This document shows, one piece after another, positions 45,574-60,574 of a DNA stretch of 64,000 nucleotides. A program made the position numbers and the translations under genes. The DNA is from a bacterium (GTDB lineage Bacteria > Bacillota > Clostridia > Lachnospirales > Lachnospiraceae). The stretch spans positions 25,234-89,233 of the forward strand of contig JAMPFT010000008.1 in assembly GCA_023664305.1 (NCBI GenBank), written 5' to 3'. Below the pieces are notes generated by a model, which was not told where the DNA came from, searched no databases, and worked only from the letters and a program-made list of their open reading frames with translations. The stretch's first letter is position 1. Every line of letters begins with the position of its first letter.

Positions 45574-46821
45574 ATGCCGATTCAGATTGTCAGGAATGAT
45601 ATTACGAAAATGGAATGCGACGCCATCGTCAACGCGGCAAATCCATCGCTTTTGGGCGGAGGCGGCGTAGACGGAGCGATTCACCGCGCCGCCGGGAGAG
45701 GGCTGTTGGAAGAATGCTCGAAGCTGGGAGGATGCGAAACCGGCCAGGCAAAAATTACGGGAGCTTATGATCTGCCCTGCAGATATGTGATTCATACCGT
45801 GGGACCGGTGTGGCAGGGCGGACAGAGCGATGAGGAAAAAAATCTGATCTCGTGCTACCGGCGTTCTCTGGAGCTTGCAGAGGAATATCACTGCGAATCG
45901 GTGGCGTTTCCCCTGATTTCCGCCGGAGCATACGGTTATCCCAGAGAGCAGGCGCTTCAGGTTGCCGTAAGTGAGATCAGCAGATTCCTGACGGATCATG
46001 ACATGCTGGTATATATTGTCGTGTTCGATAAGGGCAGCTTTCAAATCAGCAGAAAGCTGATACAGGATATCGCGGAATATATTGACGAATGCTATGTGGA
46101 AGCCCATTCTATGGAACGGGGCAGGAGCCTGAGCGCCTGCCCGCAGGAGGATGCGGGCGGACTCTTTGAGCGGAATGCATTTTGGGCTGAAGAGTATCTG
46201 GGGCAGACAAAAGAGGACGCGTCCGGAGCCGAAACAGATGCAGAGCAAAAGCGGCACGGTTCCTGGTTTGCCCGGCGTAAAAAAAGCGCGTCCGTTTCCG
46301 AACCGCTGCAGCCGAATGCTTACAGGGCCGGGGCAGCATCATCGGCAGCTCCGATGATGCCGACGCCGCTTTCCATGCCGCAGGCTGCGGTGAAGAAGGT
46401 CTCGCAGTCCGTTTTGGCCGAAACCTCGAATACGGCGGCTTACATGAGCCTGGACGAGGTAGTCAGCCAAATCGATGAAAGCTTTTCCCAAATGCTTTTG
46501 CGCAAGATCGACGAAAAGGGGATGACGGACGCGGAATGCTATAAAAAGGCCAATATTGACCGGAAGCTTTTTTCCAAGATCCGCGGCGACGTTCACTATA
46601 AGCCGAGTAAGCAGACGGCCATTGCATTTGCGGTGGCTTTGGAGCTGCCGCTGGAGGAGACGAAGGATATGCTCATGAAGGCGGGGTATGCATTGTCGCA
46701 CAGCAATAAATTTGATATTATCATCGAGTTTTTTATCAACAGGAGAAATTACGATATTTTTGAAATTAACGAAGCGCTGTTTGCCTTTGACCAGAGCCTG
46801 CTGGGCGGAAAAAGTGTTTAA
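45574..46821 (+). CDS. Macro domain protein with C-terminal helical (HTH-like) domain
   Basis: A 415-residue protein. Residues ~1-170 form an ADP-ribose-binding macro domain: ITKMECDAIVNAANPSLLGG, GVDGAIHRAAG and VAFPLISAGAYGYP. Such domains hydrolyse ADP-ribose esters or O-acetyl-ADP-ribose. Residues ~200-310 are a low-complexity linker. The C-terminus (~315-415) is helical, with DAECYKKANIDRKLFSKIRGD resembling a Cro/XRE-type helix-turn-helix. The start is the ATG at 45574 after a GGAGCGGGG site. The next gene, a VWA protein, lies 116 bp downstream. Confidence 0.87.
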   Translation: MPIQIVRNDITKMECDAIVNAANPSLLGGGGVDGAIHRAAGRGLLEECSKLGGCETGQAKITGAYDLPCRYVIHTVGPVWQGGQSDEEKNLISCYRRSLELAEEYHCESVAFPLISAGAYGYPREQALQVAVSEISRFLTDHDMLVYIVVFDKGSFQISRKLIQDIAEYIDECYVEAHSMERGRSLSACPQEDAGGLFERNAFWAEEYLGQTKEDASGAETDAEQKRHGSWFARRKKSASVSEPLQPNAYRAGAASSAAPMMPTPLSMPQAAVKKVSQSVLAETSNTAAYMSLDEVVSQIDESFSQMLLRKIDEKGMTDAECYKKANIDRKLFSKIRGDVHYKPSKQTAIAFAVALELPLEETKDMLMKAGYALSHSNKFDIIIEFFINRRNYDIFEINEALFAFDQSLLGGKSV

Positions 46822-46937
46822 AGCGCAGGCGTTTCCATTTGTCGCATGAAAAGCGACCACGGTAAGACCCTCCGGAAGTATACTGTAGTTACAAGGTTCG
46901 GAAAACGGACGACTACAGGGAAAACGGAGGGCTTTCT

Positions 46938-47615
46938 ATGAGAAATCAAATTACGGAACTGGTATTCATTCTGGATCGGAGCGGATCAATGGCAGGCCTT
47001 GAGGGCGACACGATCGGAGGATTTAACGCACTGATTGAAAAGCAGCGCAGGCAGGAGGGAGAGTGCCTGGTCTCCACGGTTCTCTTTGACAATGTGAGCG
47101 AGGTGCTTTACGACCGGGTCAGACTGAAAGAGGTCAGAAAGATGACGGAGGATGACTATACCGTGCGGGGATGTACCGCGCTGGTGGACGCGATCGGCTG
47201 CGCGATCAAACATATCGGCAATATCCATAAATACGCCAGACCGGAGGACGTGCCGGAGCACACGCTTTTTGTGATCACTACGGACGGAATGGAAAACGCG
47301 AGCCATATTTACAGCAGCGACGAGGTCAGGGAAATGGTAGAGCGGCAGAAGGAAAAGTACGGCTGGGAGTTTCTTTTTATCGGAGCGAATATCGACGCGG
47401 TGGAGACGGCGGGACATTTTGGAATCAGGGCCGACAGAACTGCCAATTATCATGCGGACAGCCGCGGGACGGCGGTAGTATTCGACGCGGTTGCAAGAAC
47501 CGTCTGTCAGGTCAGGGAGAACGCACCGTTGGCGGCAAGCTGGAACGAGAGTATCAACGAGGATTATAAAAGCAGGAAGAAAGGTTCCGGACTGTTTTCG
47601 AAGCGGGCGCGGTAA
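46938..47615 (+). CDS. VWA domain protein
   Basis: A 225-residue single von Willebrand A domain, cytoplasmic (no signal peptide). The metal-ion-dependent adhesion site is complete: FILDRSGSM (DxSxS), the Thr in RGCTALVDAI and the Asp in ITTDGMEN. The tail is basic. Stand-alone VWA proteins of this type act as scaffolds in stress or tellurite-resistance (TerY-like) systems. It follows the macro-domain gene, with ACGGAGGGC before the ATG. Confidence 0.85.
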   Translation: MRNQITELVFILDRSGSMAGLEGDTIGGFNALIEKQRRQEGECLVSTVLFDNVSEVLYDRVRLKEVRKMTEDDYTVRGCTALVDAIGCAIKHIGNIHKYARPEDVPEHTLFVITTDGMENASHIYSSDEVREMVERQKEKYGWEFLFIGANIDAVETAGHFGIRADRTANYHADSRGTAVVFDAVARTVCQVRENAPLAASWNESINEDYKSRKKGSGLFSKRAR

Positions 47616-47647
47616 TTCCTGAGAATCCCGCCGGGACGGACAAAAAA

Positions 47648-47672
47648 CCGCCGCGACATCGCGTCGCGGCGG
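47648..47672 (-). terminator. Minus-strand terminator, probably of the split tRNA
   Basis: A perfect 10-bp stem (CCGCCGCGAC) with a 5-nt loop. The T-run lies on the minus strand (AAAAAA at 47642-47647), so it ends leftward transcription. The only leftward unit pointing into it is the tRNA whose 3' end remains at 47779-47803. Confidence 0.75.
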
Positions 47673-47778
47673 GAAAATGTGAGATTTGTAGAGGAGTTTC
47701 CTGATTTAGCAGGATGTGTGACGGAAGAGAGGTAAAAACGCCTGAACCGGAAAAGCCCGGAGTTTGCGGCACAAAAAA

Positions 47779-47805
47779 TGGAAGCAAGGGGGCTCGAACC
47801 CCTGA
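47779..47805 (-). other. tRNA 3'-end remnant, prophage attachment site
   Basis: On the minus strand this is the 3' part of a tRNA: T-arm AGGGG-TTCGAGC-CCCCT (perfect stem, canonical loop), acceptor strand TGCTTCC and discriminator A. The sequence 5' of it does not form an anticodon arm, so only the last ~25 nt are tRNA. This is the expected product of prophage integration into a tRNA 3' end. The intact tRNA should be rebuilt at the other prophage end, beyond the window. GATTAC repeats at about 47853-47869 may be arm-type integrase sites. Confidence 0.7.
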
Positions 47806-48118
47806 TAAATTACCATTTTTGATAGGAAACAGGCACTTTTTCAAGTTTTCATCTGATTACTTTTGATTACCTAATTAGTATATGTCAAAAAAACGAGAAA
47901 GGAGTATCTTGCACATATGATACTAAAAATACTCCAATCAAAACATAATTGATACTTGAAACGAATTCATTCTCTGAGTGTGTTGGTTTCAGATATTAAT
48001 ATGGCACCAATGAAGCGTGCTATTGGCCTCATACAGGCATTTTATTTCATCTTTGCTATAATTTATTAGATAACAAACATTTTTCTGTAATTTGCCTAAA
48101 TATGATGATTACAAAAGG
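47806..48118. other. Prophage left end, no gene seen
   Basis: AT-rich stretch between the attachment site and the first shufflon site. It holds two close GATTAC copies but no ORF with a ribosome site. Confidence 0.6.
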
Positions 48119-48161
48119 AATGAGGATATGTGAGTATGGTAAATACCTGCATATCCTCATT
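48119..48161 (-). terminator. Likely terminator of the leftward late operon
   Basis: A perfect 12-bp stem (AATGAGGATATG with its complement) and 19-nt loop. On the minus strand it is followed by CCTTTTG. It lies just outside the outermost shufflon site, where leftward late transcription would end. Confidence 0.55.
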
Positions 48162-48182
48162 ATTAATTAAACACGAGTTTAG
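48161..48182 (+). repeat. Shufflon recombination site 1
   Basis: TATTAATTAAACACGAGTTT followed by AG. The 14-bp core AAACACGAGTTTAG occurs in all four sites. The 22-bp version is shared exactly with sites 2 and 3. Orientation plus; the cassette-1 coding segment follows directly. Confidence 0.85.
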
Positions 48183-48238
48183 AAAATGTTCCAACATTCA
48201 CCCTGTCTGGCACAACGCTTGACATTACAATAAAATAG
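48170..48238 (+). other. Silent C-terminal segment, cassette 1
   Basis: Read in the frame used at site 4, the site gives NTSL and continues as ENVPTFTLSGTTLDITIK to a stop at 48236. It has no start codon or ribosome site of its own. It would replace the C-terminus of the tail gene at 54690 after inversion between sites 1 and 4. Confidence 0.75.
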
Positions 48239-48251
48239 GGGGACGCAAAAT

Positions 48252-49019
48252 ATGGCATTTACTGCAAACGAATCAGTAGCTATAAAAACTGTAAAAGTAA
48301 TAAAAGACGAAAACACTACCATCCTTAAAAAGATAACTGTAAATGATTCAATTGTTGTGTGGTCAGCCGGGAATACTGTAACCTACATTTGCAACGGGAA
48401 AACTTACCAAGAGGAACGGGAAGAAGGGGAATCCTGCTTAACTCCAAAAACATTTACACCAGCAAAATCGGGATGGACGTTTAAAGGATGGTCAAACAAT
48501 AAGGGCTCGGCGTCTGTTTTAAGCAGTCTGGCGATGGGGGAGGAACCGGTAACTCTTTATGCAGTGTTTTCCCACGCAGGGACAACGATCACCACAGGAC
48601 AGTATTACTATAGCAGTAACGGAAACGGTAATGTGACGATAGAAAAGGAGCAATCAAGCGGGCGAATATATATTGATACATCAGCGTATTCGGCGGTCGC
48701 TGTGAGAACAACAAGTACAAGTGACTGGAGAAGCAATTACCTGACGGCTAAGCATAACGGTGACAGCGTCAGCATGTATTATAAAATCGGAAGTAGTTCA
48801 GCACTGGTCGTTACGGCTACTCATCCATGGAATGACTCGGGAGATGTTACGGAATACCCTTGCTATAAGACGGTCAGCTTTAATCTTGCTGACGAGGGCA
48901 CACAATATTTTGCAATCAGACTTAGTATAACGGCGGGCTATGCAAACGGTTGGTCGGTCGAAATGGATGTTGAGCCCGGACTAACGATAACTTTGACCGG
49001 CAGGACAATGGTAGGATAA
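48252..49019 (+). CDS. Adhesin-like tail protein, cassette 1
   Basis: A 255-residue protein, 13 bp after the cassette-1 segment with AGGGGG before the ATG. Residues ~35-105 resemble an InlB-type β-repeat (GKTYQEEREEGESC, WTFKGWSNNKGSASV, LYAVFS). The rest is strand-rich, with many Ser, Thr, Gly and Tyr (ITTGQYYYSSNGNGNV). This is consistent with a receptor-binding or tail-decoration protein. Its 3' end lies 18 bp from that of the oppositely oriented cassette 2, so the two form an invertible pair. In the present arrangement it faces away from the late promoter and should be silent. Confidence 0.7.
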   Translation: MAFTANESVAIKTVKVIKDENTTILKKITVNDSIVVWSAGNTVTYICNGKTYQEEREEGESCLTPKTFTPAKSGWTFKGWSNNKGSASVLSSLAMGEEPVTLYAVFSHAGTTITTGQYYYSSNGNGNVTIEKEQSSGRIYIDTSAYSAVAVRTTSTSDWRSNYLTAKHNGDSVSMYYKIGSSSALVVTATHPWNDSGDVTEYPCYKTVSFNLADEGTQYFAIRLSITAGYANGWSVEMDVEPGLTITLTGRTMVG

Positions 49020-49036
49020 GTAAAGAGTAAGTGCCA

Positions 49037-50056
49037 TTACCCTACCTCCTTATCGCCCAGCCTAAGACCAATCACCTCTTTGTCCCCTATGTAAAGCGCG
49101 TCAACAGGCAGATCGCCGAGATATATGGTTGGGACTGATTTTTCTAAAAGTTCGACCACCACCGATGGAGTACCGGTTGAACCGCCCATGGTGGTAACAC
49201 CATTTTCTACAATGGGATTAATATACCCAGAACCGCCGCCACCTGGAGAAGGACCGTTATAATTTCCGCCGGCTCCTCCCCCATACCAGCCGCCGCCTCC
49301 TGCAGCTCCAATAGTATGCTCACTGCCGAGTCCGCTCAAAAGTGCTCCTCCACCTTGACCGAACGAGCCGCGTTCATACTGTTCAGCAATTACCATACCC
49401 GGAGTGTTATCTGTTCTGCCGGTATATATTGATTTTCCGCCTGCTGTCTGGGTTGCGCCATATCCTAAACCAGTACCCATATTCGACCCGCCGTTTTGCG
49501 AAGTCGTTCCTCTTGCTCCACTATTACCGCCCCCAACTCCTCCGTATCCATATCCGATGGCCCGTTGAAATTGGCCGCTGTTCTGATTTCCACCAGACCC
49601 GACATAGGTGCTATTTTCACTGTAGGCATTTCCTCCGGCACCTCCGGCGACCATCAGAATATCATTTTTATAGTTTACAAGTTCTTTTAATAAACCTGTT
49701 CTTCTTGCTATATGGGTAGCTCCACCTCCTCCTGACCGCTCCCCATATGCTTTACCCACATAGCCAGGACCAGTAGCACTTCCGGTAGTACCGGATTGCG
49801 AGGTTCCTCCTCCGTTATATCCCCCGGCATAAGTTCCTCCATTCCCTCCGACCACTACATAGATGATTTCCCCTTTTTCCAAGGTCAGAGTTCCTTTTGT
49901 TTGTCCTCCACGGCTGGCAGGCGGAACACATTTGCAAGTTCCACCATTGCCTCCGTTTAAGACAAACCGATACTTCCCGCTATACGGAGCAACAAAGATC
50001 TGGATTGTTCCCGTATAGCTGAATGTCTGACTTTCCCCTACTTTCGTAATCGCCAT
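49037..50056 (-). CDS. Glycine-rich tail adhesin, cassette 2
   Basis: A 339-residue glycine-rich protein. The opening MAITKVGESQTFSYTGTIQI and SGKYRFVLNGGNGG are followed by long GG-repeats with SGGGGATHIARRTG and MVAGGAGG. It ends in PVDALYIGDKEVIGLRLGDK. The first ~10 and last ~23 residues nearly match cassette 3 on the opposite strand. Glycine-rich folds of this sort occur at phage fibre tips. The ATG at 50056 follows GGGGTGATAGGT; the GTG at 50065 overlaps the stop of the preceding segment. Predicted to be expressed only when brought behind site 4. Confidence 0.75.
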   Translation of the reverse strand: MAITKVGESQTFSYTGTIQIFVAPYSGKYRFVLNGGNGGTCKCVPPASRGGQTKGTLTLEKGEIIYVVVGGNGGTYAGGYNGGGTSQSGTTGSATGPGYVGKAYGERSGGGGATHIARRTGLLKELVNYKNDILMVAGGAGGNAYSENSTYVGSGGNQNSGQFQRAIGYGYGGVGGGNSGARGTTSQNGGSNMGTGLGYGATQTAGGKSIYTGRTDNTPGMVIAEQYERGSFGQGGGALLSGLGSEHTIGAAGGGGWYGGGAGGNYNGPSPGGGGSGYINPIVENGVTTMGGSTGTPSVVVELLEKSVPTIYLGDLPVDALYIGDKEVIGLRLGDKEVG

Positions 50057-50061
50057 ACCTA

Positions 50062-50163
50062 TCACCCCACAATCACATAAATGGTGTTAGTTTCATGGCT
50101 GTTCATCGCATTATACTCTGCCTGTGTGCATGAGGCGAGAGATAAGCCACCTAAACTCGTGTT
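50062..50163 (-). other. Silent C-terminal segment, cassette 2
   Basis: From site 2 leftward the frame reads NTSL then GGLSLASCTQAEYNAMNSHE and on to NTIYVIVG and a stop. The CTQAEYNA…NTIYVI pattern is a common ending of Firmicute phage tail/baseplate proteins. No start codon; it needs fusion to the N-terminus at 54690. Confidence 0.8.
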
Positions 50164-50172
50164 TAATTAATA
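50151..50172 (-). repeat. Shufflon recombination site 2
   Basis: The same 22-bp sequence as sites 1 and 3, in minus orientation. It faces site 1, enclosing cassettes 1 and 2. Confidence 0.85.
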
Positions 50173-50369
50173 AAGTTCTAATATCTATAATTTTATACCC
50201 TATCATAATCCATAACCTTATATATTCTACAAATTGAAAATGGATAAATAAGGAAATTCTTGAGTCAAAAAGCAGAAGATATATTTTACATGATAAAAAC
50301 ATATGTTCACAAAATCGTGTGACTATATAAAAAGGAGAGTTGAGATTTTATATTTCAACATAAAGACCA

Positions 50370-51359
50370 ATGGATATTAGAACAAACATAATTCAAAATA
50401 TGGTTAATCATTTTTCAGGGAAAATTGATGATTCTCTTATCAATACAATTCAAGATATTTTGACCATCGAACTTAACAATTATGAAATTCAAAACAGAAG
50501 TACAGAAATTGTCGTTTATGATAACAGCAACGAAAAGATTCTAAAGAAGTTTGTTGCATCAAAGAGAGTAGATGGTATTGCAGAATCCACTTTAAAAAGA
50601 TATATAGAACAAATTAGGGCATTACTATATTTTCTTGGAAAACCTATAGTTGAAATTAATACATATGATATAAGATTTTATTTTTCTGTAAAAAGGGAAC
50701 GCGATAAAGTATGTAATAGAACGTTAGATGGTACGCGTAGATGTTACAACAGTTTCTTCAAATGGGTAGCTAATGAAGGATATATAGCTAAAAATCCGTG
50801 TGCTTCAATTGCGCAAATCAAATACAAAAGAACAATTAAAAAACCATATTCAGCAGTCGAATTAGAAAAACTAAGGAAATCATGTAGCGATATAAGGGAT
50901 CTGGCATTAGTTGAATTTTTATATGCTACAGGGTGTCGTGTTTCTGAAGTGTCAAATCTGAATATGATGGATGTGGATTTTGAGAATATGCAATGTACTG
51001 TACTTGGCAAAGGTAATAAAGAACGAATTGTTTATTTAACTGATGTTGCCTCTATGTATCTACAGGAATATCTATCTACCAGAAAACATCTCTCTGATGC
51101 ATTATTTATTGGGAAAAAGGGAAAAAGACTAAGTAAAAACGGGATAGAGGCATTACTAAAACGTTTGGGACAAAAAGCAAAAGTTGAAAATGTACATCCG
51201 CATCGATATCGAAGAACACTTGCTACTAATTTGCTTGATCACGGAATGAGTATTCAAGATGTAGCAATGATACTGGGACACGCCGATCTTAAAACTACGC
51301 AAGTATATTGTTATATATCTCAGAAAAATGTAAGTAATGCATATAAAAAATATGCATAA
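50370..51359 (+). CDS. Tyrosine recombinase (XerC/D-like), likely shufflon recombinase
   Basis: A 329-residue tyrosine site-specific recombinase. The N-terminal SAM-like core-binding domain spans ~60-165. The catalytic domain has Arg in ATGCRVSEVSNLN, Lys in GKGNKERIV, HPHRYRRTLATNLLDHG (His-x-x-Arg), LGHADLKTTQVYCY (His and Tyr). All catalytic residues are present. It lies between sites 2 and 3, at the centre of the invertible region. The ribosome site is weak (AAGGAGAG lies ~30 bp upstream). It could instead be the prophage integrase, but that is usually at the other end of a prophage whose late genes abut the att site. Confidence 0.88.
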   Translation: MDIRTNIIQNMVNHFSGKIDDSLINTIQDILTIELNNYEIQNRSTEIVVYDNSNEKILKKFVASKRVDGIAESTLKRYIEQIRALLYFLGKPIVEINTYDIRFYFSVKRERDKVCNRTLDGTRRCYNSFFKWVANEGYIAKNPCASIAQIKYKRTIKKPYSAVELEKLRKSCSDIRDLALVEFLYATGCRVSEVSNLNMMDVDFENMQCTVLGKGNKERIVYLTDVASMYLQEYLSTRKHLSDALFIGKKGKRLSKNGIEALLKRLGQKAKVENVHPHRYRRTLATNLLDHGMSIQDVAMILGHADLKTTQVYCYISQKNVSNAYKKYA

Positions 51360-51414
51360 TAATAGACATAACAAATAAGAGCGAGAGTGTTTTAAAAAAG
51401 TTAAAATCGTAAAA

Positions 51415-51467
51415 AAATAGGTTATCAATTTTTATATTTCTTAAAATATAAAAGTGATAACCTATTT
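51415..51467. terminator. Bidirectional terminator
   Basis: A perfect 13-bp outer stem (AAATAGGTTATCA) with a second AT-rich stem inside. It separates the convergent recombinase and membrane-protein genes. Confidence 0.75.
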
Positions 51468-51475
51468 ACAATATT

Positions 51476-51961
51476 TTACATTCTAAATGGCATTCTTCTT
51501 AGAAACTCTTTACCAAATATTTTGTAATATGGTTGTTCGTTGTCTTTACATATATAGTACCAATATGCATCACAAAAGAAAATACCAAATCCACCAACAA
51601 TCAAAAGCCATGCAAACACAAAGAATAAATTACACTGTCCGTAAAAGAATGTAAATGGAAGGCTGCTATAATCCCATACATTTAGACCTAATTTGACATT
51701 TACAATTATACCAGTAAATCCTTCACCTATTGTACATAAAATTGTAGATATTAATACCTGTATAGAATAATCCAAGTCATATCCAAATATGTTATTTGGA
51801 GTATCTATGCAAAAGATCCCTAATAAACCAGAAAGCAATGCCATAGACCAATGCGTATATCCCCTGTATAATATTTCTATGAAACAATATATAACAGAAC
51901 ACAACAAAAATAATATAGCCTTACGGGTTACTGTTTTTATAAAATTACTATGCATTATCAA
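51476..51961 (-). CDS. Small membrane protein of the CmpB-type (putative ABC permease) family
   Basis: A ~161-residue membrane protein with four hydrophobic helices. The stretch GEGFTGIIVNVKLGLNVWDYSSLPFTF followed by GQCNLFFVFAWLL is the hallmark of the putative ABC-transporter permease (CmpB) family. Phages of Firmicutes often carry such a gene near the lysis module. The role is unknown. Its start overlaps the end of the DUF4376-like gene by 14 bp, so the two are coupled. Both lie in the central segment that could invert together with the recombinase gene. Confidence 0.7.
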   Translation of the reverse strand: MIMHSNFIKTVTRKAILFLLCSVIYCFIEILYRGYTHWSMALLSGLLGIFCIDTPNNIFGYDLDYSIQVLISTILCTIGEGFTGIIVNVKLGLNVWDYSSLPFTFFYGQCNLFFVFAWLLIVGGFGIFFCDAYWYYICKDNEQPYYKIFGKEFLRRMPFRM

Positions 51962-52805
51962 TTTCCTCTATATCTTGTTGATCTTTGTTATTATTAATTA
52001 TTTCTTCATAGACTTCATTATTTTCTTGCATAATAACCTCTTCCTTATGAGTACCTATTTTTAGTAATGTGTTCATTCCTAATTCAGCTTGTTCTATAGC
52101 AGCATTGTATGTACTTAAATAATCTCCTTCTAATTGATATCCATATTCTATAGACTCAATATCCTCAGATGCACATAAAGTATTTATATACATTTTTAAT
52201 TGATTAAAATAAGTAATATGGCGCATTTTATTCATAGCTGCTGTAGTATATAATGAAACAATTTGCTCTACAGTATATTCCTTACAACTACTTCCATTGG
52301 CATGATAGTATAATGGTGTATTTGTTTGTACAGCTAAATCAAATAATTCTTTGATATTAACCTGATCTTCTTCATCATAACTAAAAAATTCCATTATTCC
52401 ATTAATATTGATAGCTACACCGCTAATAATCATATTGTTGCAAAAAGAAGACAACTCGGAGATTTTTTTGTTCCTTATCTCCTCAATAGTTGGAGTATAT
52501 TCTTCTTGAATAAAATCAGGATCGCTATCTGGGAGTTGTGGCTCAACATAGACATCATCCTTATCATTTGTTAATATATAAGTTGTGTCATCTAATTTGT
52601 GATAAATATAATTCATATCTATAAAATCAGACTGTTCAATATAATTATGTTCATTTAATTCAACAAATCCACCAAGTAAAATTGTTTCTTTCGGAATATT
52701 TTTTTCGTCAGTAAAAATCATCTTAATTCGCCCGTTAGGATAAGAGGATAAGTTTACTTCTATAGGCTTACTACTAGAAGATTTCTTAAATAATATAAGT
52801 GACAT
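51948..52805 (-). CDS. DUF4376-like phage protein
   Basis: A 285-residue phage protein. The middle (~105-210) has the pattern of DUF4376-type tail-region proteins: KISELSSFCNNMIISGVAIN, FSYDEEDQVNIKELFDLA, LYYHANGSSCKEYTVEQI, NQLKMYINTL. The C-terminus is acidic. AAAGGAGAT precedes the ATG. These proteins are usually encoded next to tail-fibre genes, possibly as assembly factors. Here the gene sits between sites 2 and 3 and reads leftward, like the late operon. Confidence 0.7.
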   Translation of the reverse strand: MSLILFKKSSSSKPIEVNLSSYPNGRIKMIFTDEKNIPKETILLGGFVELNEHNYIEQSDFIDMNYIYHKLDDTTYILTNDKDDVYVEPQLPDSDPDFIQEEYTPTIEEIRNKKISELSSFCNNMIISGVAININGIMEFFSYDEEDQVNIKELFDLAVQTNTPLYYHANGSSCKEYTVEQIVSLYTTAAMNKMRHITYFNQLKMYINTLCASEDIESIEYGYQLEGDYLSTYNAAIEQAELGMNTLLKIGTHKEEVIMQENNEVYEEIINNNKDQQDIEEIDNA

Positions 52806-52910
52806 TATAAAATCTCCTTTATTTTTCGATTTTTATTTTATTAAATGAGTAAATCAACTACAATAAATCATTGGTAATAGATATTACTTTGAGTGAAATA
52901 GATATTATTT

Positions 52911-52932
52911 TATTAATTAAACACGAGTTTAG
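52911..52932 (+). repeat. Shufflon recombination site 3
   Basis: Identical to the 22-bp sites 1 and 2, plus orientation. The next bases make an 8-bp inverted repeat with the site (CGAGTTTA…TAAACTCG). It faces site 4, enclosing cassettes 3 and 4. Confidence 0.85.
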
Positions 52933-53027
52933 GAGGTCTTAAACTCGTTATTTGCACTCCAAGTGAGTATGAAGCATTAGAAGTAAAGGATTCTAATACG
53001 TTATACTTTACTTTTCTATATGAATAG
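52920..53027 (+). other. Silent C-terminal segment, cassette 3
   Basis: From site 3 the frame reads NTSL then GGLKLVICTPSEYEALEVKD and on to SNTLYFTFLYE and a stop at 53025. It parallels the cassette-2 segment in pattern and length (31 and 29 residues after the site). No start codon of its own. Confidence 0.8.
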
Positions 53028-53038
53028 GGGTGACGGGT

Positions 53039-53923
53039 ATGGCGATTACGAAAGTAGGGGAAAGTCAGAGCTGGAGTACAACATACGGAACAAATGTAAT
53101 TTTTATCGTCCCGGAATCTGGGTTATACCGTCTGGAAGCGTGGGGTGCATCCGGATGCAGCACAGACGGTGGAGTAGCAGGCAGAGGTGGTTATGCATCT
53201 GGCTATATACTACTGGAAAAGGGGGAGATGTTGTACTGCTATCTCGGAGGAGTAGGGCAGGCTGGAAGTGGTGTCCCCTCGTTTAATGGTGGTGGCGAAG
53301 GACGTTACGCATCACACGGCAGCGGAATGCGAGGAGGCTCTGGTGGGGGAGCCACTCATATCGCAAGAGTAAACGGATTTTTAGCAGATATCGGCTATGA
53401 GGATTTTGTGACAAATAAAAAGGGTTTAATTGTTGCCGGTGGCGGAGGATCGGCAGGCGGGAGCGGCAACACTGGCGGCCATGGAGGGGGATTATCCGGG
53501 ACACACGGCCAAACAAATGGTTCTAACAATGATTATGGCAGAGGTTCTGGTGGGACACAAACAGGAGGAGGTAATTTCAACGGCAGATTCGGTAAAGGCG
53601 GAGGATTAACTAATAACGATGGAAGTTACCCTTGGTTCGGCGGAGGCGGTGGGTTATTCGGAGGCGGTTCTAACACCTACACTTCAAGCGGAGGCGGTTC
53701 TTCTTTTATCGGAAATTTGCCAGAAATACGTTTCCACGGTACTATTTATTCTCCAGTAACGATCGCCGGAGGAAATTATACGGCAGGAGGCGGCAGGATC
53801 ACCATCACATACATTGCAGAAGCAGCACCTTACTTGTATCTCGGCAATTTACCTGTTGACGCGCTTTATTTGGGGGACAAAGAGGTGATTGGTCTTAGGC
53901 TGGGCGATAAGGAGGTAGCGTAA
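53039..53923 (+). CDS. Glycine-rich tail adhesin, cassette 3
   Basis: A 294-residue glycine-rich protein, related to cassette 2 but with a different centre. It opens MAITKVGESQSWSTTYGTNV, then shows SGLYRLEAWGASGC, RGGSGGGATHIARVNG and IVAGGGGSAGG. It closes with LPVDALYLGDKEVIGLRLGD, nearly identical to cassette 2. The ATG at 53039 follows AGGGGTGACGGGT. The gene reads rightward, against the late operon, so it should be silent until the 52.9-54.4 kb segment inverts. 20 bp separate its end from that of cassette 4. Confidence 0.78.
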   Translation: MAITKVGESQSWSTTYGTNVIFIVPESGLYRLEAWGASGCSTDGGVAGRGGYASGYILLEKGEMLYCYLGGVGQAGSGVPSFNGGGEGRYASHGSGMRGGSGGGATHIARVNGFLADIGYEDFVTNKKGLIVAGGGGSAGGSGNTGGHGGGLSGTHGQTNGSNNDYGRGSGGTQTGGGNFNGRFGKGGGLTNNDGSYPWFGGGGGLFGGGSNTYTSSGGGSSFIGNLPEIRFHGTIYSPVTIAGGNYTAGGGRITITYIAEAAPYLYLGNLPVDALYLGDKEVIGLRLGDKEVA

Positions 53924-53943
53924 AATTGACTTTTTAATATTTT

Positions 53944-54690
53944 TTATATCCGAAACACAAGCAGTTCTGCATATACGGCTAATGCGTATGTGGAAAACGA
54001 TTTTCCATTTACAGTAAAGGAAATTGTCTGATTCCCTTTTGCTATATAGTATAAATTACTATGTTTGATACTTCCTTGTCCGCCATCGGTGTATGCACTT
54101 TGTGTGAATATGTTTAAAGTTGTTCCAACCGAAGTACCGCCAGATTTGAGCGTTACGGTTATTGAATCATAGAAAAAATTTTCGTTGATTTCTTCTCCAT
54201 TGGCCACTATTAAATACGTTCCGCCGTCTGCAATGGAATATGATGTACTTGTCGAGCAGGAACCAATACCTTGTTTTGTAGTATAGGTCTTGCTGATTAA
54301 TGTGGCAGAACCTCCAGTTTTAATATTTGCTATATTTTCTGCCATTGTCGAAAAATTTGCGTTGCTATTCGTGTTTACCCCTTTTGCCGTTATAGCTGAC
54401 GCTATCGAGGTTTTACCGTCAGCTACAGATTCCCCCAAGGTTTCTAAACTCGTGTTTAGTTCAGTTACTTGATCTTGTAAGTCTTTACCGGCTGCAGCGG
54501 ATAATGCAATATTTTTGCTGGTAGAAACCAGAGAACTGGTGATTCCATTTATTGCCCCCAGTTTTATCTGGGCAGTTTTTCCATCATCAAATTCTATTGT
54601 GTTAGAGTTAGTCCATTGTGAACACAGTTTATATCCATCGTCGGTTAATGTATATCTTTTGTATTTTCCGTATCCAGTTAATACGCTCAT
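53944..54690 (-). CDS. Tail protein with variable C-terminus (expressed copy, cassette 4)
   Basis: A 248-residue tail protein. Residues 1-82 are the constant part (MSVLTGYGKYKRYTLTDDGY … DLQDQVTELNTSL); recombination site 4 encodes its end. Residues 83-248 are the current variable part: a helical start (ETLGESVADGK), then a strand-rich region ending YAELLVFRI. It is the last late gene that reads in the operon direction before the invertible segments. AAAAAGGAGGGAAG precedes the ATG, which overlaps the stop of a 57-codon ORF. In the other states the same start would make a much shorter protein followed by a separate adhesin gene. Confidence 0.78.
   Translation of the reverse strand: MSVLTGYGKYKRYTLTDDGYKLCSQWTNSNTIEFDDGKTAQIKLGAINGITSSLVSTSKNIALSAAAGKDLQDQVTELNTSLETLGESVADGKTSIASAITAKGVNTNSNANFSTMAENIANIKTGGSATLISKTYTTKQGIGSCSTSTSYSIADGGTYLIVANGEEINENFFYDSITVTLKSGGTSVGTTLNIFTQSAYTDGGQGSIKHSNLYYIAKGNQTISFTVNGKSFSTYALAVYAELLVFRI
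54444..54459 (-). repeat. Shufflon recombination site 4, inside a coding frame
   Basis: Minus-strand CTAAACACGAGTTTAG contains the 14-bp core; the upstream TTAATT part of sites 1-3 is replaced by coding sequence. It is itself a 6-bp inverted repeat around ACGA. It encodes LNTSL at residues 78-82 of the tail protein. Confidence 0.85.
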
Positions 54691-54860
54691 AAACTTCCCT
54701 CCTTTTTACATGGTTGTATCCAGAATTTTTTATTATGTAAGACCATCCATTCAACAGTAGGTTCGATTAAATCATAGTATTCATCCTGTTTCGCAACAAA
54801 TTTATTTAAAAACCAAATGTAAATTTTATCACGCATGTTTAAAATAAATTTCATATTCAT
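54687..54860 (-). CDS. Small phage ORF coupled to the variable tail gene
   Basis: A 57-codon ORF (MNMKFILNMRDKIYIWFLNK … KFWIQPCKKEGSL). Its TGA overlaps the ATG of the tail gene (ATGA), and its last codons contain that gene's ribosome site. GAGGTAAATT lies before its own start. It fills the gap after the 108-residue tail gene. The peptide is basic and aromatic-rich, family unknown. Many phages encode a similar tiny protein just before a fibre gene. Confidence 0.6.
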   Translation of the reverse strand: MNMKFILNMRDKIYIWFLNKFVAKQDEYYDLIEPTVEWMVLHNKKFWIQPCKKEGSL

Positions 54861-54877
54861 AACTAATTTACCTCATC

Positions 54878-55204
54878 TTAATATTCCTGAACCCATGAAT
54901 CCCCAATAAGTTGAGTATTAGAATCTGGCTCAGTATTAGATAAAACAGAAGATACACCAGATGAATTTGATACTCTCTTTATCCATTGATCCGTATCTTT
55001 TCCTAATAGCCAAACGGATCCGTCTTCCAAACACAAACACTGAGAACCTGGCGCACATTTATTCTTACATACAGTATCATTTTCTTGTGGTTGTCCTTCT
55101 TTAGTAGCTGTTGGAAGATCGCGCAAATTACTTAAAGAATCGCACATAAAAAATCGCCATAACGAATTGTTTTTATTACCCGCTTCATGTATCCAATATG
55201 CCAT
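54878..55204 (-). CDS. Small phage tail protein
   Basis: A 108-residue protein with the segment CAPGSQCLCLEDGSVWLLGKDTDQWIK, common in small tail or fibre-associated proteins of Firmicute phages. Its ending (NTEPDSN … GDSWVQEY) resembles the end of the BppU-type protein encoded just upstream (STEPSVGDQNVGDFWLQEY), so the two probably share an end module. 15 bp separate the genes. Confidence 0.65.
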   Translation of the reverse strand: MAYWIHEAGNKNNSLWRFFMCDSLSNLRDLPTATKEGQPQENDTVCKNKCAPGSQCLCLEDGSVWLLGKDTDQWIKRVSNSSGVSSVLSNTEPDSNTQLIGDSWVQEY

Positions 55205-55219
55205 AAATTACCACCTCCC

Positions 55220-56755
55220 TTAATATTCCTGTAACCAAAAATCACCTACATTCTGATCCCCAACTGAGGGTTCTGTAGATGATAGTATTTCTATAGTTAT
55301 ATCTGGCAATTGAGTTTTTGGTATTTTTTTATTTTCATCAAGTGTTGCAACCCCATTAGCGGCATCTTTTTCTGTGCTCGCGATAAAACCAGTACCAGAA
55401 ACGATATCTTCACAAGATTTGGCTGCAGTATTTGCTCTTTCAGTTGCCTTTTCCGCATTAGCAACGGCATTAGCAACTTGAGATTGCCTATCAGATTCAT
55501 TGGTTTGACGTAGAGATTCATTTATAACGCGAGTTGCTTCACTTTCTGCTCGTATGTTTTCTGCGTCTGCTCTTTCTGTTTCCTTTAGCAATCGCTCCGT
55601 TTCATTTTCAGTTCTATCATTTTCTCCTTCAATTCGAGCAAGTTCGTTTTCTTTCCGTAGATTTTCGGCATCTATTCGCTCTAATTCTGCGTTATTTCTA
55701 ATATCTTCAGCAGAAACCCTAATATTCTCATCGACAGTTCTTTTCTTCTCATTTTCGATTCGAGTATCTTCATTTTCGACACGGACAGATTCATTATCAT
55801 CACGTTCTTTTTCTGCAAGAATTCTGATATCTTCAGAATTTATCCTGATTTCTTCATCCTGTTTTCTTAAATCTTCATTTTGAACTCTGATAGATTCTGC
55901 GGAAGTACGATCTTCTTCAGCACTTAATCTCTCTGCTTCTGCATCAATGCGGATTAACTCAGAATTGGCTCGATTTATTTCGTTACTGATTCGTTCATTT
56001 TCACTTACTTCACGAATTTGCTCTTGTTCTTCTCTTGCTTTTTCTGAATTGCTACGTTCATTTTCAGCTTCGACTCGAATGTTTTCTGATGTAATACGTT
56101 CTTCTTCAGCGTTTATTCTATCTGTTTCAGCACTACTTCTTTCATTCTCGTTGGCATTTCTAATATTTTCAGTCTGTTCTCGAAGTTCCTCAGTTTTAGT
56201 TCTATCTATTTCTGCATTAACTCTTAATTTTTCTGCGTTGTCTCGCTTTAATTCTTCTTCGCTTACATAAGTTTCCAACTGACGCATATCTGAAATTGCA
56301 TGATTTGCATTATTAATTGTATTTTCGGCGCGGGTAATATTTGAAGTAAGAATTTGAAATTCGTCCGATGATGCAATGTAATCTGCGTCAAAGGTTGCAG
56401 AAGTAGTTAAGATATAGAACGGGAAAGATTTTAATTGTGTATTTGTGGTTTTACTCATCAATACGATTTGATAATCACCACGTCCTTTAACGGCGCTCAT
56501 TTGTGGTGTTATATTTACAAAAATATACCCATCATCTGTTAGTTCACACAAGTTCATGACTTGTTTAGTATCTGGTTTTGTGCCGACAATAGAGACAATG
56601 GTATCTTCTTTGTCGATTTGATACTGTATACCGTTTTGAATCAGTTCAACTTCAAATCCACGAATATCGTTTCCGTCCCCTTGCACAGTTGGAACTTGTA
56701 CAAAATTGTTGTTGGATGATAAATCTATTATGTAGTGTTGATATATACCATTCAT
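55220..56755 (-). CDS. BppU-type upper baseplate protein with long coiled coil
   Basis: A 511-residue protein. The N-terminal ~140 residues match the BppU family of baseplate upper proteins (HYIIDLSSNNNFVQVP, GDYQIVLMSKTTNTQLKSFP). Residues ~155-430 consist of seven-residue coiled-coil repeats of the type ENERxxx/ExxRxxA, dozens of units long. The C-terminus carries a short end module (IPKTQLPDITIEIL, GDFWLQEY). Such proteins link the baseplate to receptor-binding proteins. It fits the following variable tail gene as the part that carries it. Confidence 0.85.
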   Translation of the reverse strand: MNGIYQHYIIDLSSNNNFVQVPTVQGDGNDIRGFEVELIQNGIQYQIDKEDTIVSIVGTKPDTKQVMNLCELTDDGYIFVNITPQMSAVKGRGDYQIVLMSKTTNTQLKSFPFYILTTSATFDADYIASSDEFQILTSNITRAENTINNANHAISDMRQLETYVSEEELKRDNAEKLRVNAEIDRTKTEELREQTENIRNANENERSSAETDRINAEEERITSENIRVEAENERSNSEKAREEQEQIREVSENERISNEINRANSELIRIDAEAERLSAEEDRTSAESIRVQNEDLRKQDEEIRINSEDIRILAEKERDDNESVRVENEDTRIENEKKRTVDENIRVSAEDIRNNAELERIDAENLRKENELARIEGENDRTENETERLLKETERADAENIRAESEATRVINESLRQTNESDRQSQVANAVANAEKATERANTAAKSCEDIVSGTGFIASTEKDAANGVATLDENKKIPKTQLPDITIEILSSTEPSVGDQNVGDFWLQEY

Positions 56756-56810
56756 TATTAAGTTTCTTCACCTCACTTAGTGTAAATTAACGTCCCAGTT
56801 TATTGTTGTG

Positions 56811-57035
56811 TCATCGGGAAGTGTAGCAACATATCGTATACGCAACCTCAAAGGACTTTTTCAAAATAATCCGCATAACCTCCTCGGGCAGTTTTTTTCT
56901 TACATAGTCATGAATTGTTCGTTCGCGGAATACCCTATTGATTTTTTTGGCAACAAGTAAGCGCCCTTTGCAAAGGGCGCTTACCTTCTTGATTAAATAT
57001 GCGAGGATTATATCATAATTTTTGGCGTGATTCAA
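56811..57035 (-). CDS. Doubtful ORF between tail genes
   Basis: A 74-codon frame in the 280-bp gap between the spike and BppU genes. It is less AT-rich than its surroundings, lacks a clear ribosome site and contains a 28-bp perfect palindrome. The peptide (RTIHDYVRKKLPEEVMRIIL) has no family I recognise. It may be a remnant of an inserted element rather than a gene. Confidence 0.2.
   Translation of the reverse strand: MNHAKNYDIILAYLIKKVSALCKGRLLVAKKINRVFRERTIHDYVRKKLPEEVMRIILKKSFEVAYTICCYTSR
56957..56984. repeat. 28-bp perfect palindrome
   Basis: GTAAGCGCCCTTTG and its exact complement with no loop. It could act as a hairpin between the two late genes or be part of a small inserted element. 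No T-run follows on either strand within a few bases. Confidence 0.8.
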
Positions 57036-59753
57036 CTATTGACAAAGTACCGTATAAAAAGTTCCATTAGATTCTATTGTTCCCCAATGGCAAGTTGATC
57101 CTATTGTTAATGTACCAAGTGTAAGTCTTTTGCAATGTACACCGTCAGTTGCAGTTAAATCTACAACTTGCACTAGGCTTGCTTGTTGCAATTTTGATGT
57201 TATTGTGTTGACATCTATCCTGTCTGCCGATATAGTTCCTGACTTAATATTACTTGCATTTAAATTGTTAAATTTTGCATTTACCGCATTCAAACTCTCA
57301 ACACTTACATGATCAGCCTCCAATGCGCCTATTCTTGCTGTGGCGGCATTCAGATCGGTTATAGTTGCCTTTGTCGCAATTAGGTTACCTAATTGAGCTT
57401 CATTGGCATATAAATTTTTAATATCAGCATTTATTGCATCTAAATAATTAACTTTGATATAATTTGCAGCCAATGATTCAATATGTGGAATAGTGGTTCC
57501 GCTAAACGGATTAGCTACAGTACTTCCATAGGTAGCATTGTCTGTTATTACTATGTTTTTAAAGGATGTGCTACCGTCAGAATTAATCAACCAATTGTTG
57601 TCTGAAGAGTGGATAGAATTATCCGATATAACAGCCCCTCCAATATTTCCTTTTGTAGCCGATAAAACACCGTTTTCATCTACCGAAAAAGTACCGTTTC
57701 CATTATTAAATCTGGATCCGGTTATCGTTCCGCCTATAATTTCAGTACCCTCAATAACGGAACCAGCAATATATCCGGCAATTAAAAAATCGGCAAAGGT
57801 TCCAAAACGTGATTGTGTAACACCCTTTATCGTCACATCAGCACGTCCAACACTCATTGCAACAGTTTTCCAGTTATCATCAGTAAAAAGGATTCGGCCT
57901 CCTCCTAAGAAAATAGAATCTTTATACGCGTATTCTCCGGAAGTAGTATTTATAAAAATACCACGCGTATCGATGACCATTTCTGAATCATCACCATTTT
58001 TAAGGTATTTCCCAGCGGCAATCAGCCCCTCATCAAGAATTTGCCCAATAATAGAGGTATCCTTAGCTGACTGGCTCCAATAAGAAGCATTAAAGGATAC
58101 TGATGTAGCAGCATTAGATGCTTTGTTGAGAACCTCCACAATATCATAGCAACGATCTTTTGACTTCCTTACAACATTGCCAAAAGTTACTGAGAAATCA
58201 GTTGTATCGTAGAAATTGACATGAACAGATAACAATTTCGCTTTTATAGAAAAATCATCTCTCAAAGTTACCCAGATATAGTTACCTGGAACAAAGTCAT
58301 CATAAATTTTTTCAAATTCTGGAATGGCAAACAAATTAGCTATATCTGCTTCAAATGATAATTGTGGAACAGAAGCTTTTGCTAATTCTTTCTCACCAAA
58401 TTCCAGCATACTGTTTAACATTTCAAATCTTTCGTCATCCGTCATTATATCTGTCACAACATAATTAGAACTGTTTAATTCCTCTTCGCGGATAAAACTA
58501 TTTAACTCATCCAGTTCTTCTTTGGTGAAATTATTTTGCATAGATGTGATACGAATGATTTCAGACATTTGATTTGAGATAGAAGTTTGTTGATCTTTCA
58601 GTGAATTGATTTGCTGTTCTACAATTTGAATTTGTGAATTGATACCTTGAATTGTGTTATAAATAGGCAGATATAATGACTCGTAGAACTGATTTGACGG
58701 ATCTCCGTGACCAGCCTTCATAGATACGGCTTGTTGCTGTTCATAAGCAGCCAGTTGTTCCTTTAGTGACTGTAACCCGTATTCTGACCAGTCTGTACTA
58801 CCTGTAACGGATGGCATTTTCTGGTGATTAAGATAATTAATTTGTGTGTAAAAATCTTGATATTGGGATAGAAGAGAAGTATATATTGGAAGCTGTGAAT
58901 TTCTAAGTACAATCCACTTGTTATATGCTTCATATAATTTTCGACTCATAAATTCCGTTGAGTTATAATAATCAAAATTATATATTTTGTCATACCCCAT
59001 ATTAATTTCACGAACCGTTAAATCGTCAGATCCGGTTATCGTTAAACAGGTTTTGATATCATCTGTTGAATAAGATAAAGTTGTATTTTTTAAAAGATTG
59101 GTATACGAAATATGTATATTAGTGTCTTTACTAACAGTTTCTTCTTTATAAATATTAATGGTATTTGTGAGTGTATCGAATAGAAAGAAGCATCCAAAAG
59201 CCTCAGCAACATCATTCATCAAGAAAGAGTAAATATCTTGTCTGTCTATTTCAAAACTGCGCTGCATCGTCATTAGCGCTGGATCTATATGACCGATTTT
59301 CCATTCTGGTGCCTTTTCCAGTATCAGGTTTAATAGACTATGTGACGCATCCGATAGATTATAAAACTGAACTGAATCTATACTTTCAACGGTTCCCATA
59401 TTGATTACAAAATTTTCCAAGTATCTCTGAGCAAGTAAACATTCATAACTTTTTGCCGTAACATCTTTAGATTCAAATTCTGTACCTTCGGATTGAATAT
59501 TTATAGAAGTGATTGAAAAAAATCCCACATCTGGAACAAAGATGTATTTCATTACATCAACATCATTATAAAAAGGATTCTCTTCGCCATTCATGAAATA
59601 ATATATTGTAAAATTTATTTCATCTAAGTTGTTAAATTTGAAATCAATTGTCTTATCGGTACATTGTAATACACCGATTCGTTCTTTATTTGCTTTACAT
59701 AGTACATAATCAGGTATAACAGGATTGTCAAAAAAATCCCTATTTATTCTCAT
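57036..59753 (-). CDS. Phage tail spike / tail-associated protein
   Basis: A 905-residue structural protein. The first ~480 residues follow the pattern of Gp44/prophage tail proteins of Siphoviridae (KTIDFKFNNLDEINFTIYYF, SYECLLAQRYLENF, FVPGNYIWVTLRDDFSIKAKLL). Residues ~320-440 include coiled coil. The C-terminal third is repetitive β/helical fibre (GYIAGSVIEGTEIIGGTITG; LNAATARIGALEADHVSVES). No peptidase motif was recognised. Its ATG overlaps the stop of the distal tail gene, so they are coupled. Confidence 0.82.
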   Translation of the reverse strand: MRINRDFFDNPVIPDYVLCKANKERIGVLQCTDKTIDFKFNNLDEINFTIYYFMNGEENPFYNDVDVMKYIFVPDVGFFSITSINIQSEGTEFESKDVTAKSYECLLAQRYLENFVINMGTVESIDSVQFYNLSDASHSLLNLILEKAPEWKIGHIDPALMTMQRSFEIDRQDIYSFLMNDVAEAFGCFFLFDTLTNTINIYKEETVSKDTNIHISYTNLLKNTTLSYSTDDIKTCLTITGSDDLTVREINMGYDKIYNFDYYNSTEFMSRKLYEAYNKWIVLRNSQLPIYTSLLSQYQDFYTQINYLNHQKMPSVTGSTDWSEYGLQSLKEQLAAYEQQQAVSMKAGHGDPSNQFYESLYLPIYNTIQGINSQIQIVEQQINSLKDQQTSISNQMSEIIRITSMQNNFTKEELDELNSFIREEELNSSNYVVTDIMTDDERFEMLNSMLEFGEKELAKASVPQLSFEADIANLFAIPEFEKIYDDFVPGNYIWVTLRDDFSIKAKLLSVHVNFYDTTDFSVTFGNVVRKSKDRCYDIVEVLNKASNAATSVSFNASYWSQSAKDTSIIGQILDEGLIAAGKYLKNGDDSEMVIDTRGIFINTTSGEYAYKDSIFLGGGRILFTDDNWKTVAMSVGRADVTIKGVTQSRFGTFADFLIAGYIAGSVIEGTEIIGGTITGSRFNNGNGTFSVDENGVLSATKGNIGGAVISDNSIHSSDNNWLINSDGSTSFKNIVITDNATYGSTVANPFSGTTIPHIESLAANYIKVNYLDAINADIKNLYANEAQLGNLIATKATITDLNAATARIGALEADHVSVESLNAVNAKFNNLNASNIKSGTISADRIDVNTITSKLQQASLVQVVDLTATDGVHCKRLTLGTLTIGSTCHWGTIESNGTFYTVLCQ

Positions 59754-60574
59754 CCAATAACTCCCACCTTTCTTGGGACTCTATATTTCATTGAAATAGT
59801 GATATCCATATTTGAAACATACTCATTTTTGTCAGGAACCAATCTGATCCATTTAAGATTAAAGTCATCCAGTAATAAATCATGTAAGAGATTGGATGAT
59901 ATAAGTTGATGTTGTGAATCAATTGTTATTTGCTCATTTTGTTTTACATTTTCGATTTCAGAAATATATTCATTATCGCTCTTATTTGTTAAGGAAATTG
60001 TGCCAGTAGAAGATGAGATTATAGAAACGAGGGGATAAACATAATTGCGTAGATCGTCTGTATTATTAAAAATATAGAATGGATGATTTGCTGTAGCATG
60101 AATTGTTATATTTTGTTCTGTAGACCATGCATAAAAGGAGTCACACTCAAATTCAAAAATTAGCCCAGCTATACGATTGCCAACACGATTATATGAGACA
60201 CCCTTAACTTTTGTTCTATACCATAAGTCTTCTTCTGAGTCGTATGTTACGATTTTCGTCCATTGATAGCCTTTTTTACCAGTCAATTCCCGCAACAGCC
60301 ATCTGCAGTCCTTTTCTGTAAAGAACATATCATTCTGAAAAATACAAGGATCTCTTATTAAAGTAATTTGTAGATTTAATTTATCAGTATATTTGTCTCC
60401 AAGATAAACGGGGATAGGATAGCCGCCTATAAATTCCTCTGATGTATTTACGGTCATTCCAATGTCATCCGCTGATGTACCTCCGTAAGAAAATGATGCA
60501 ATTATAAGTCCATAATCAGATGCTCTGAAATTATCCCAAATAAAATCTTTGCTAAATATTTCTATCTTTATCAC
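59750..60574 (-). CDS. Distal tail protein (Dit-like)
   Basis: A ~274-residue phage tail protein of the Dit type, which joins the tail tube to the baseplate. The N-terminus has FIWDNFRASDYGLIIASF; then YPIPVYLGDKYTDKLNLQITL and the C-terminal galectin-like region (FYAWSTEQNITIHATANHPF). The start is uncertain: a GTG at 60574 gives the usual N-terminus, while a TTG at 60613 extends it. It sits between the tape measure and spike genes, as in most siphoviruses, but here a 290-bp element intervenes. Confidence 0.78.
   Translation of the reverse strand: MIKIEIFSKDFIWDNFRASDYGLIIASFSYGGTSADDIGMTVNTSEEFIGGYPIPVYLGDKYTDKLNLQITLIRDPCIFQNDMFFTEKDCRWLLRELTGKKGYQWTKIVTYDSEEDLWYRTKVKGVSYNRVGNRIAGLIFEFECDSFYAWSTEQNITIHATANHPFYIFNNTDDLRNYVYPLVSIISSSTGTISLTNKSDNEYISEIENVKQNEQITIDSQHQLISSNLLHDLLLDDFNLKWIRLVPDKNEYVSNMDITISMKYRVPRKVGVIG

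Follow-up and report, generated by a model that had tools for sequence, protein, structure and literature searches.

What does a site-specific recombinase do when four copies of one short repeat surround it beside the tail genes of a prophage? The question is raised by a locus in a 64,000-nucleotide stretch of DNA from a Lachnospiraceae bacterium (contig JAMPFT010000008.1, positions 25,234 to 89,233; hereafter the window, whose own numbering is used below), which an initial annotation had read as a prophage tail shufflon. The later evidence bears that reading out: the locus is a tail-fibre shufflon of a Lachnospiraceae prophage with a probability of about 0.88, because its sites lie in frame with the fibre gene, its recombinase is full-length and retains the catalytic residues, a tail operon lies upstream, related loci share its layout, and two pairs of relatives are inverted with respect to each other. 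Switching in the window prophage itself is what we infer from these features.

The repeat has a 14-bp core, AAACACGAGTTTAG, with four exact copies (zero mismatches) in the window in the orientation + − + −, as first annotated. The 3.58-Mb assembly (completeness 94.64%) holds no other copy, and the reversed core, searched as a control, gave none. Sites 1 to 4 lie at 48167–48182 (plus strand, core 48169–48182), 50151–50166 (minus, core 50151–50164), 52917–52932 (plus, core 52919–52932), and 54444–54459 (minus, core 54444–54457). Sites 1–3 read TTAAA-CACGAG-TTTAG and are identical over 23 bp, whereas site 4, in the fibre gene, reads CTAAA-CACGAG-TTTAG and has the right 15 only; all four are alike over 15 bp. 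In each, the arms enclose the asymmetric 6-bp centre CACGAG, giving every site a direction. The maximum copy number of any 14-mer was at most two in 300 dinucleotide shuffles of 46000–57000, against the four observed. When three mismatches were allowed, the core search returned nine matches, roughly the level in shuffles, and for this reason only exact copies are counted.

The sites are placed in register with the fibre reading frame. As first annotated, site 4 lies in frame within the tail gene that starts at 54690 (54690–53944, minus strand), where it codes L-N-T-S-L. The phase of the fibre gene is open at all four sites, for 22, 33, 35, and 170 residues at sites 1, 2, 3, and 4, whereas the other phases are open for 3–16 residues only; at site 1 an alternative phase runs for 16 residues, so the 22-residue frame there is unimpressive by itself. 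Counted after NTSL, the ends at sites 1–3 comprise 18, 29, and 31 residues, the lengths originally given. The constant N-terminal part of the fibre, 83 residues including the site (54441–54690, minus), is 73% identical to its counterpart in a related locus of Acetatifactor muris DSM 23669 (L050). It matches the phage tail fibre repeat PF22337 weakly (E 0.058, residues 54–78, adjoining the site); the constant part of L050 does so at E 0.0024, under the family cut-off, and in the fibres of L050 and a further relative, L160, the weak match stops near the site.

Four cassettes can be delimited. Cassette 4, currently joined, is a long C-terminal part of the fibre without a separate adhesin gene (53944–54444, minus). 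At the other three sites, a short fibre end in the open phase, closed by a stop codon, is followed by an adhesin-like gene, as had been proposed. In cassette 3, the fibre end (52932–53027, plus; 31 residues) precedes a glycine-rich PF12810 protein (53039–53923, plus; E 1.1e-26); in cassette 2, the end at 50062–50151 (minus; 29 residues) precedes another PF12810 protein (49037–50056, minus; E 5.1e-10); and in cassette 1, the end at 48182–48238 (plus; 18 residues) precedes a protein with the Listeria-Bacteroides repeat PF09479 (48252–49019, plus; E 5.4e-08). The start codons of the adhesin-like genes in cassettes 2 and 3 were set by eye. Encoded next to a fibre end, the glycine-rich and repeat proteins are putative adhesins, a role taken from family membership; a search for a solved-structure relative of the cassette-3 protein found none. 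The cassettes stand tail to tail in pairs, and of the two gaps first reported, the 20-nt one holds (53923/53944), whereas the 18-bp one is 17 nt between stop codons (49019/49037).

The glycine-rich cassettes 2 and 3 have common ends (their fibre ends, ..YNAMNSHETNTIYVIVG and ..YEALEVKDSNTLYFTFLYE, are alike), and a second, contractile-tail-like prophage of the same genome (G000 contig C6, locus L054, 3–1687) runs to a contig end in a glycine-rich adhesin-like gene that is 56% identical to cassette 2 over 156 residues and is preceded by a fibre end of like kind. The whole-assembly search did not find the core in that prophage, indicating that such units of fibre end and adhesin also occur outside the window shufflon. 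One could therefore suppose, from the shared ends and the cassette-2-like gene, that cassettes are exchanged between phages by ordinary homologous recombination and that the repeats are merely shared coding motifs. We consider this very improbable, given that the 23 bp common to sites 1–3 lie partly outside any fibre gene, that the copies alternate in orientation and are absent from the rest of the genome, and that relatives described below invert exactly at their sites.

The recombinase (50370–51359, plus; 329 residues) is a tyrosine recombinase whose only Pfam families above cut-off are SAM-like PF13495 (residues 57–136) and catalytic PF00589 (168–315); it has no arm-type domain. Residues R190, K214/K217, H278, R281, H304, and Y313, which we take to be the catalytic residues, are invariant in a four-row recombinase alignment. 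Among proteins of solved structure, XerD, a XerC-like protein, and XerA are its best matches by sequence. That the enzyme is instead the prophage integrase or a XerC/D-type dimer resolvase might be argued from its matches to integrase PHROGs and from its passing the cut-off of NF040815 (XerA-type recombinase/integron integrase; 225.7 against 220 bits), which an hsdS-linked relative, L058, also passes (233.2 bits). With scores far under the cut-offs for XerC (192.5 against 335 bits) and XerD (181 against 330 bits), a position apart from the XerC/D-like rows of the tree considered below, and a place between its own repeats, the enzyme scarcely fits either role, and we give this possibility almost no weight.

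The recombinase does separate the cassette pairs, as the initial annotation stated, together with two phage genes that it did not mention, all three lying between sites 2 and 3. One (51948–52805, minus) encodes a DUF4376/tail-fibre-family protein (PF14301, phrog_1348) that is 71% identical to its counterpart in L049, the closest relative, and 57% in L050. The other (51476–51961, minus) encodes a membrane protein (phrog_20274; CmpB-like under the Pfam cut-off) whose kin lie near lysis genes in related phages.

A search of genome contigs found five related loci, two of them close: L049, from a Roseburia sp. metagenome-assembled genome (recombinase identity 84%), and L050 (75%). L050 has eight strictly alternating sites and four tail-to-tail cassette pairs beside the same tail operon as the window, and all eight sites are open in phase, for 85–195 residues; a broken second member of the recombinase family is found there between two cassette pairs (6835–7579). 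L049 shows three sites before its contig ends. Among 138 genomes of the window's genus, six, its own included, carry the recombinase at E ≤1e-80, adding L156 (66% identity), with all four sites alternating and in phase and with baseplate-type neighbours (hand labels); L158 (62%), with three sites at a contig start; and L159 (55%), which is uncertain. In an even sample of 397 genomes from a larger set of the family, nine, again including the window's own, gave matches, for 11 loci besides the window. Repeated sites surround the recombinase in 10 of these (L101, L160, and L162–L169); L161 has neither sites nor tail context.

At least three repeated sites were found in 14 of the 16 relatives examined, the broken recombinase of L050 being left out; L159, at a contig end beside a repressor and with a 7-base core, was excluded from the counts. 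Seven relatives have at least four copies (L050 eight, L101 seven, and L156, L165, L166, L168, and L169 four each) and seven have three (L049, L158, L160, L162, L163, L164, and L167). Alternation is strict in 13 of the 14, the exception being L101 (+ + − + − − −). Three-copy 11-mers, which also occur in the recombinase-free loci L155 and L157 and in L161, are weak alone, so the seven three-site loci rest on the position of the copies around the recombinase and on their common phase. Copies with mismatches were admitted in L101 (up to two in 14) and in L162 and L163 (up to two in 11), and copies judged to be chance or overlapping were dropped (L160 11627− and 12794−; L162 6601−; L166 9417−, 11522−, and 11710−; L167 10874+; L168 10561+; L169 10666+; and all in L159).

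The in-frame arrangement of the window recurs in these loci. Across the window and the 14 relatives, one phase per locus is open at 59 of 60 sites, for 17 (at the contig start of L158) to 195 residues: 41 of 41 in the window, L049, L050, L156, L158, L101, L165, L168, and L169, and 18 of 19 in L160, L162, L163, L164, L166, and L167, the sole exception being a copy in L163 with two mismatches. Wherever the fibre gene is on the contig, the common phase is that of the fibre gene; for L049 and L158 the phase was taken from kin. The site letters vary across loci, yet most code a similar stretch: LNTSL in the window, LNTG in L049, L050, L156, and L158, NSSL in L101, NSDL in L168 and L169, INSKI/L and INSNL in L160 and L167, and NSKI in L166; the sites of L162–L164 code QALSAN. 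The fibre candidates of L156, L160, L162, L164, L165, L166, and L168 match a tail, fibre, or baseplate family of PHROGs or Pfam, and that of L101 matches a tail-type family weakly; the same scan gave no match for those of L163 and L167 and did not cover that of L169. The names baseplate J, gpW, and tail I given to neighbours in L160 are hand labels and not database matches. The joined cassette of L160 (8800–9254) reads INSKIDALKKSVADGKT.., close to the start of window cassette 4, LETLGESVADGKT.., so that one cassette type is found in two shufflons with differing sites.

Several other candidates were set aside. In L064, from the viral_contigs collection, a tail gene stands next to the recombinase but repeated sites are not clear, so that the locus was not counted, and a search of the same collection with the 15-mer core matched 20 stretches once each, which we take to be chance. 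Phage records with a match numbered 748, of which 20 were listed and six (L066–L071) examined; three of the six (L066, L067, and L069) carry hsd genes, and in L071, a Terrisporobacter phage, a 12-mer occurs three times, though the copies do not surround the recombinase. Near a distant recombinase in L043 (G039:C42), we also observed a repeat with 34-bp spacing, ACAATGGGGACGG, in oppositely oriented groups.

Rearrangement itself is seen in relatives. One genome, assembled as a single contig (completeness 99, contamination 8), carries both L168 and L169, about 0.94 Mb from each other. A 521-bp segment bounded by the third and fourth sites is 99.0% identical in the two loci but inverted, and it has no match in direct orientation. 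The flanks are collinear, at 97.5% over 1,216 bp on the recombinase side and 84% over 1,206 columns on the other; the sequences diverge directly after ATAGTGATTTAGCT. The fibre start is joined to a pair other than the flipped one, and this joined pair is unmatched between the two loci. L163 and L164, from another genome, share a stretch of 20 residues, MGIVYQKDASAEKQALSANL, that continues as QGVSVKWPDYG.. in one case and as YPVGAVYMSFDS.. in the other; between the two loci, the cassette matches in direct orientation at 93% and the recombinase in inverted orientation at 90%. No tail operon was found in either of these short remnants, and an attempted alignment of their outer flanks yielded none. 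The search of related genomes that had been suggested for other arrangements thus turned up two inverted pairs of relatives, whereas the window locus itself is seen in one arrangement only.

These features can be put together as follows. The recombinase would pair two opposed sites, cut within CACGAG (the exact position being a supposition), and invert the intervening DNA. One of four cassettes would thereby follow the constant 83 residues at the start of the fibre, and since N-T-S-L is read in the same phase at every site, the junction would be in frame. With cassettes 1–3, a fibre end and its own adhesin gene would switch together, and with cassette 4 a long C-terminal domain would be presented. 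The adhesins presumably bind cells, and a swap of tail tips probably changes which cells are targeted. If inversion is allowed only between opposed sites, a model of the locus passes through 16 arrangements, four per cassette, with the + − + − order constant, and cassettes 4, 3, 1, and 2 are joined after zero, one, one, and two steps.

The block between sites 2 and 3 is turned in eight of the 16 modelled arrangements, and it is conceivable that the recombinase serves chiefly to turn this block and so switch late genes on and off, with tail variants as a by-product. We regard this as improbable: in L156 the recombinase is the only recognised gene enclosed by the inner sites, and the cassettes and in-frame sites are kept, and in the window all sites are in frame with the fibre.

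Several observations weigh against an active tail-fibre shufflon in the window. The locus is known in a single arrangement. Site pairs 1 + 3 and 2 + 4 are direct repeats, recombination between which could delete the middle block, and the proposed reading gives no reason why they should be spared. In arrangements with the middle block turned, the DUF4376 and membrane protein genes face against the tail operon. The recombinases of the relatives that show inversion are only ~39% identical to that of the window, so the inversions speak for the behaviour of the family and not for the activity of this copy. Finally, searches of viral_contigs with the recombinase, the fibre start, and an alignment of the DUF4376 protein found no relative near enough for a comparison, and an alignment of the recombinase gave two distant matches only (L064 and L065).

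The single arrangement would also suit a former shufflon, now frozen, in which cassettes and sites persist while the window copy no longer switches. The broken second recombinase of L050 shows that such loci decay, and the best match of the window's membrane protein gene spans just 48 residues in L049 and 88 in L050. Still, the window recombinase is open over 329 codons with its active-site residues conserved, the four sites remain identical over 15 bp, and all four frames are open. Loss of switching is thus an unlikely alternative, and we retain the tail-fibre shufflon as the preferred reading.

The setting of the locus is that of a prophage. Upstream of the fibre gene, a tail operon on the minus strand (55220–60613, comprising 55220–56755, 57036–59753, and 59750–60613) places it there, with kin in the same order in L050 and its continuation, L155. 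The tail protein at 55220–56755 contains a long run of seven-residue repeats rich in N, A, E, and R which, judged by eye, is probably a coiled coil. The locus sits at the prophage edge. Just ahead of site 1, the sequence matches L049 over 141 bp (from 47896) and L050 over 42 bp (from 47897), and at the edge itself about 47781–47806 (minus) resembles the 3′ end of a tRNA by eye, possibly an attachment site, although ARAGORN called no tRNA there. In L049 the prophage adjoins a shortened hsdM-like gene (7184–7837), as if integrated there.

What is the recombinase akin to? Outside the phage group, the nearest relatives whose context is known are the HsdS invertases of type I restriction loci. We built a tree of 66 loci, the base of which is unresolved, with four XerC/D-like rows; these rows are far off, and the window recombinase stands apart from them. 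hsdM or hsdS lies near the recombinase in 35 of the 66 loci, which were labelled hsd; L049 and L061, with an hsdM-like match, were not. A clade of 41 rows (35 hsd-linked, six unassigned) has support 100/100 and leaves the window outside. The 17 rows labelled tail by hand, including L064, L071, and L159, require four label changes, two of them forced by starred branches, and therefore do not form one clade; the placement of L064 and L071, both long branches, is unsure.

The sites offer a second comparison. In 16 of the 35 hsd loci, a k-mer detected without an assumed motif has exactly four copies of alternating orientation, of which two precede and two follow the recombinase. Of these 64 sites, 57 fit TAAA-N6-TTTA exactly, six with one mismatch, and one with two, as against exact fits in 1% of 3,200 random stretches of the same loci. 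All four window sites fit exactly (random 0.4%). The closest phage kin, L049 (one to three mismatches) and L050 (two to three), keep the left arm and not the right; best matches elsewhere have one to three mismatches in L156, zero to three in L101, one to two in L164, three to four in L165 and L166, and zero to two in L160, L167, L168, and L169. The match in site form is thus strong for the window and not for the whole phage group and, with most phage relatives lacking an exact TAAA-N6-TTTA, it is no more than suggestive of a common site recognition between phage and hsd invertases. No hsdM, hsdS, or hsdR was found within 9 kb of the window recombinase (searched from 44000). Elsewhere in its own genome (G000 contig C11, L056, 12830–13831), a further recombinase, 41% identical, lies in a type I restriction locus. 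We put forward tentatively, at slightly less than even odds, that Lachnospiraceae phage tail shufflons and host hsdS shufflons are one switching module, with related invertases and TAAA-N6-TTTA-like sites that code an N-x-x-L linker stretch, so that one kind of enzyme would re-aim both restriction (defence) and tails (attack) and may have been passed between them.

Among known systems, the initial annotation had named the shufflon of plasmid R64, in which the tyrosine recombinase Rci acts at several sfx sites to interchange the C-termini of one surface protein, encoded by a pilV-type pilus gene. The shufflon logic holds, but R64 is not the nearest relative: in function the window locus is closest to the Rin system discussed below, and in sequence its nearest non-phage relatives are the HsdS invertases. 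R64 also differs in acting on a plasmid pilus gene, in site structure, and in gene order; no Rci-named family is among the domain, PHROG, or profile matches of the window, whose substrate is a tail gene and not of pilV type. In phage Mu, a fibre end and a partner gene switch together. Gin, Cin, and Min, the inversion systems of phages Mu, P1, and p15B (PMC6109161), resemble the window locus in switching tail fibres by inversion but are serine recombinases, whereas the window enzyme is of the PF00589 tyrosine type. Inversions around prophage tail fibres have also been described in four species of Proteobacteria (PMC5903667).

HsdS invertase loci, among them that of PsrA in Streptococcus pneumoniae, can share with the window, as in the 16 loci above, four alternating sites of the form TAAA-N6-TTTA around the recombinase; they differ in acting on hsdS instead of a tail gene and in having a recombinase clade of their own. 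PsrA inverts DNA in vitro at a 15-bp repeat (PMC7096588). A study of invertons in a defined community links tyrosine recombinases with invertons of Clostridia and with restriction subunit S (PMC11892184); its main text, at least, contains neither the word phage nor prophage. How a restriction-type invertase comes to serve a phage could be studied in the loci described here, which also offer a route to test how gut phages vary receptor binding without mutation.

In the literature searched, tyrosine-recombinase tail shufflons have so far been described in prophages of two actinobacterial genera: Rin in Bifidobacterium (PMC6109161) and a Rin-like locus in clade 1 prophages of Eggerthella lenta (PMC8778435). 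Among the titles listed, none mentions such a shufflon in Lachnospiraceae phages, the search covering mostly open-access papers and no bioRxiv preprints. Rin and the window share an armless tyrosine recombinase, a constant receptor-binding start with swappable C-termini, a short asymmetric site before each cassette, and a place in a prophage tail locus. The likeness is one of functional description. Rin is described with its recombinase at one end, tandem cassettes of 95–100 residues, and two directly repeated sites at the gene, the site being TTCCCTAACCC; the puzzle of deletion between direct repeats has been raised for it as well (PMC6109161). In the window, by contrast, alternating tail-to-tail pairs flank the recombinase, the adhesin genes are separate, and the site is different. 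The kind of system is thus already known from Rin and, as far as our searches reach, what is new is a family that recurs in the Lachnospiraceae, a major gut group, with several kinds of fibre gene.

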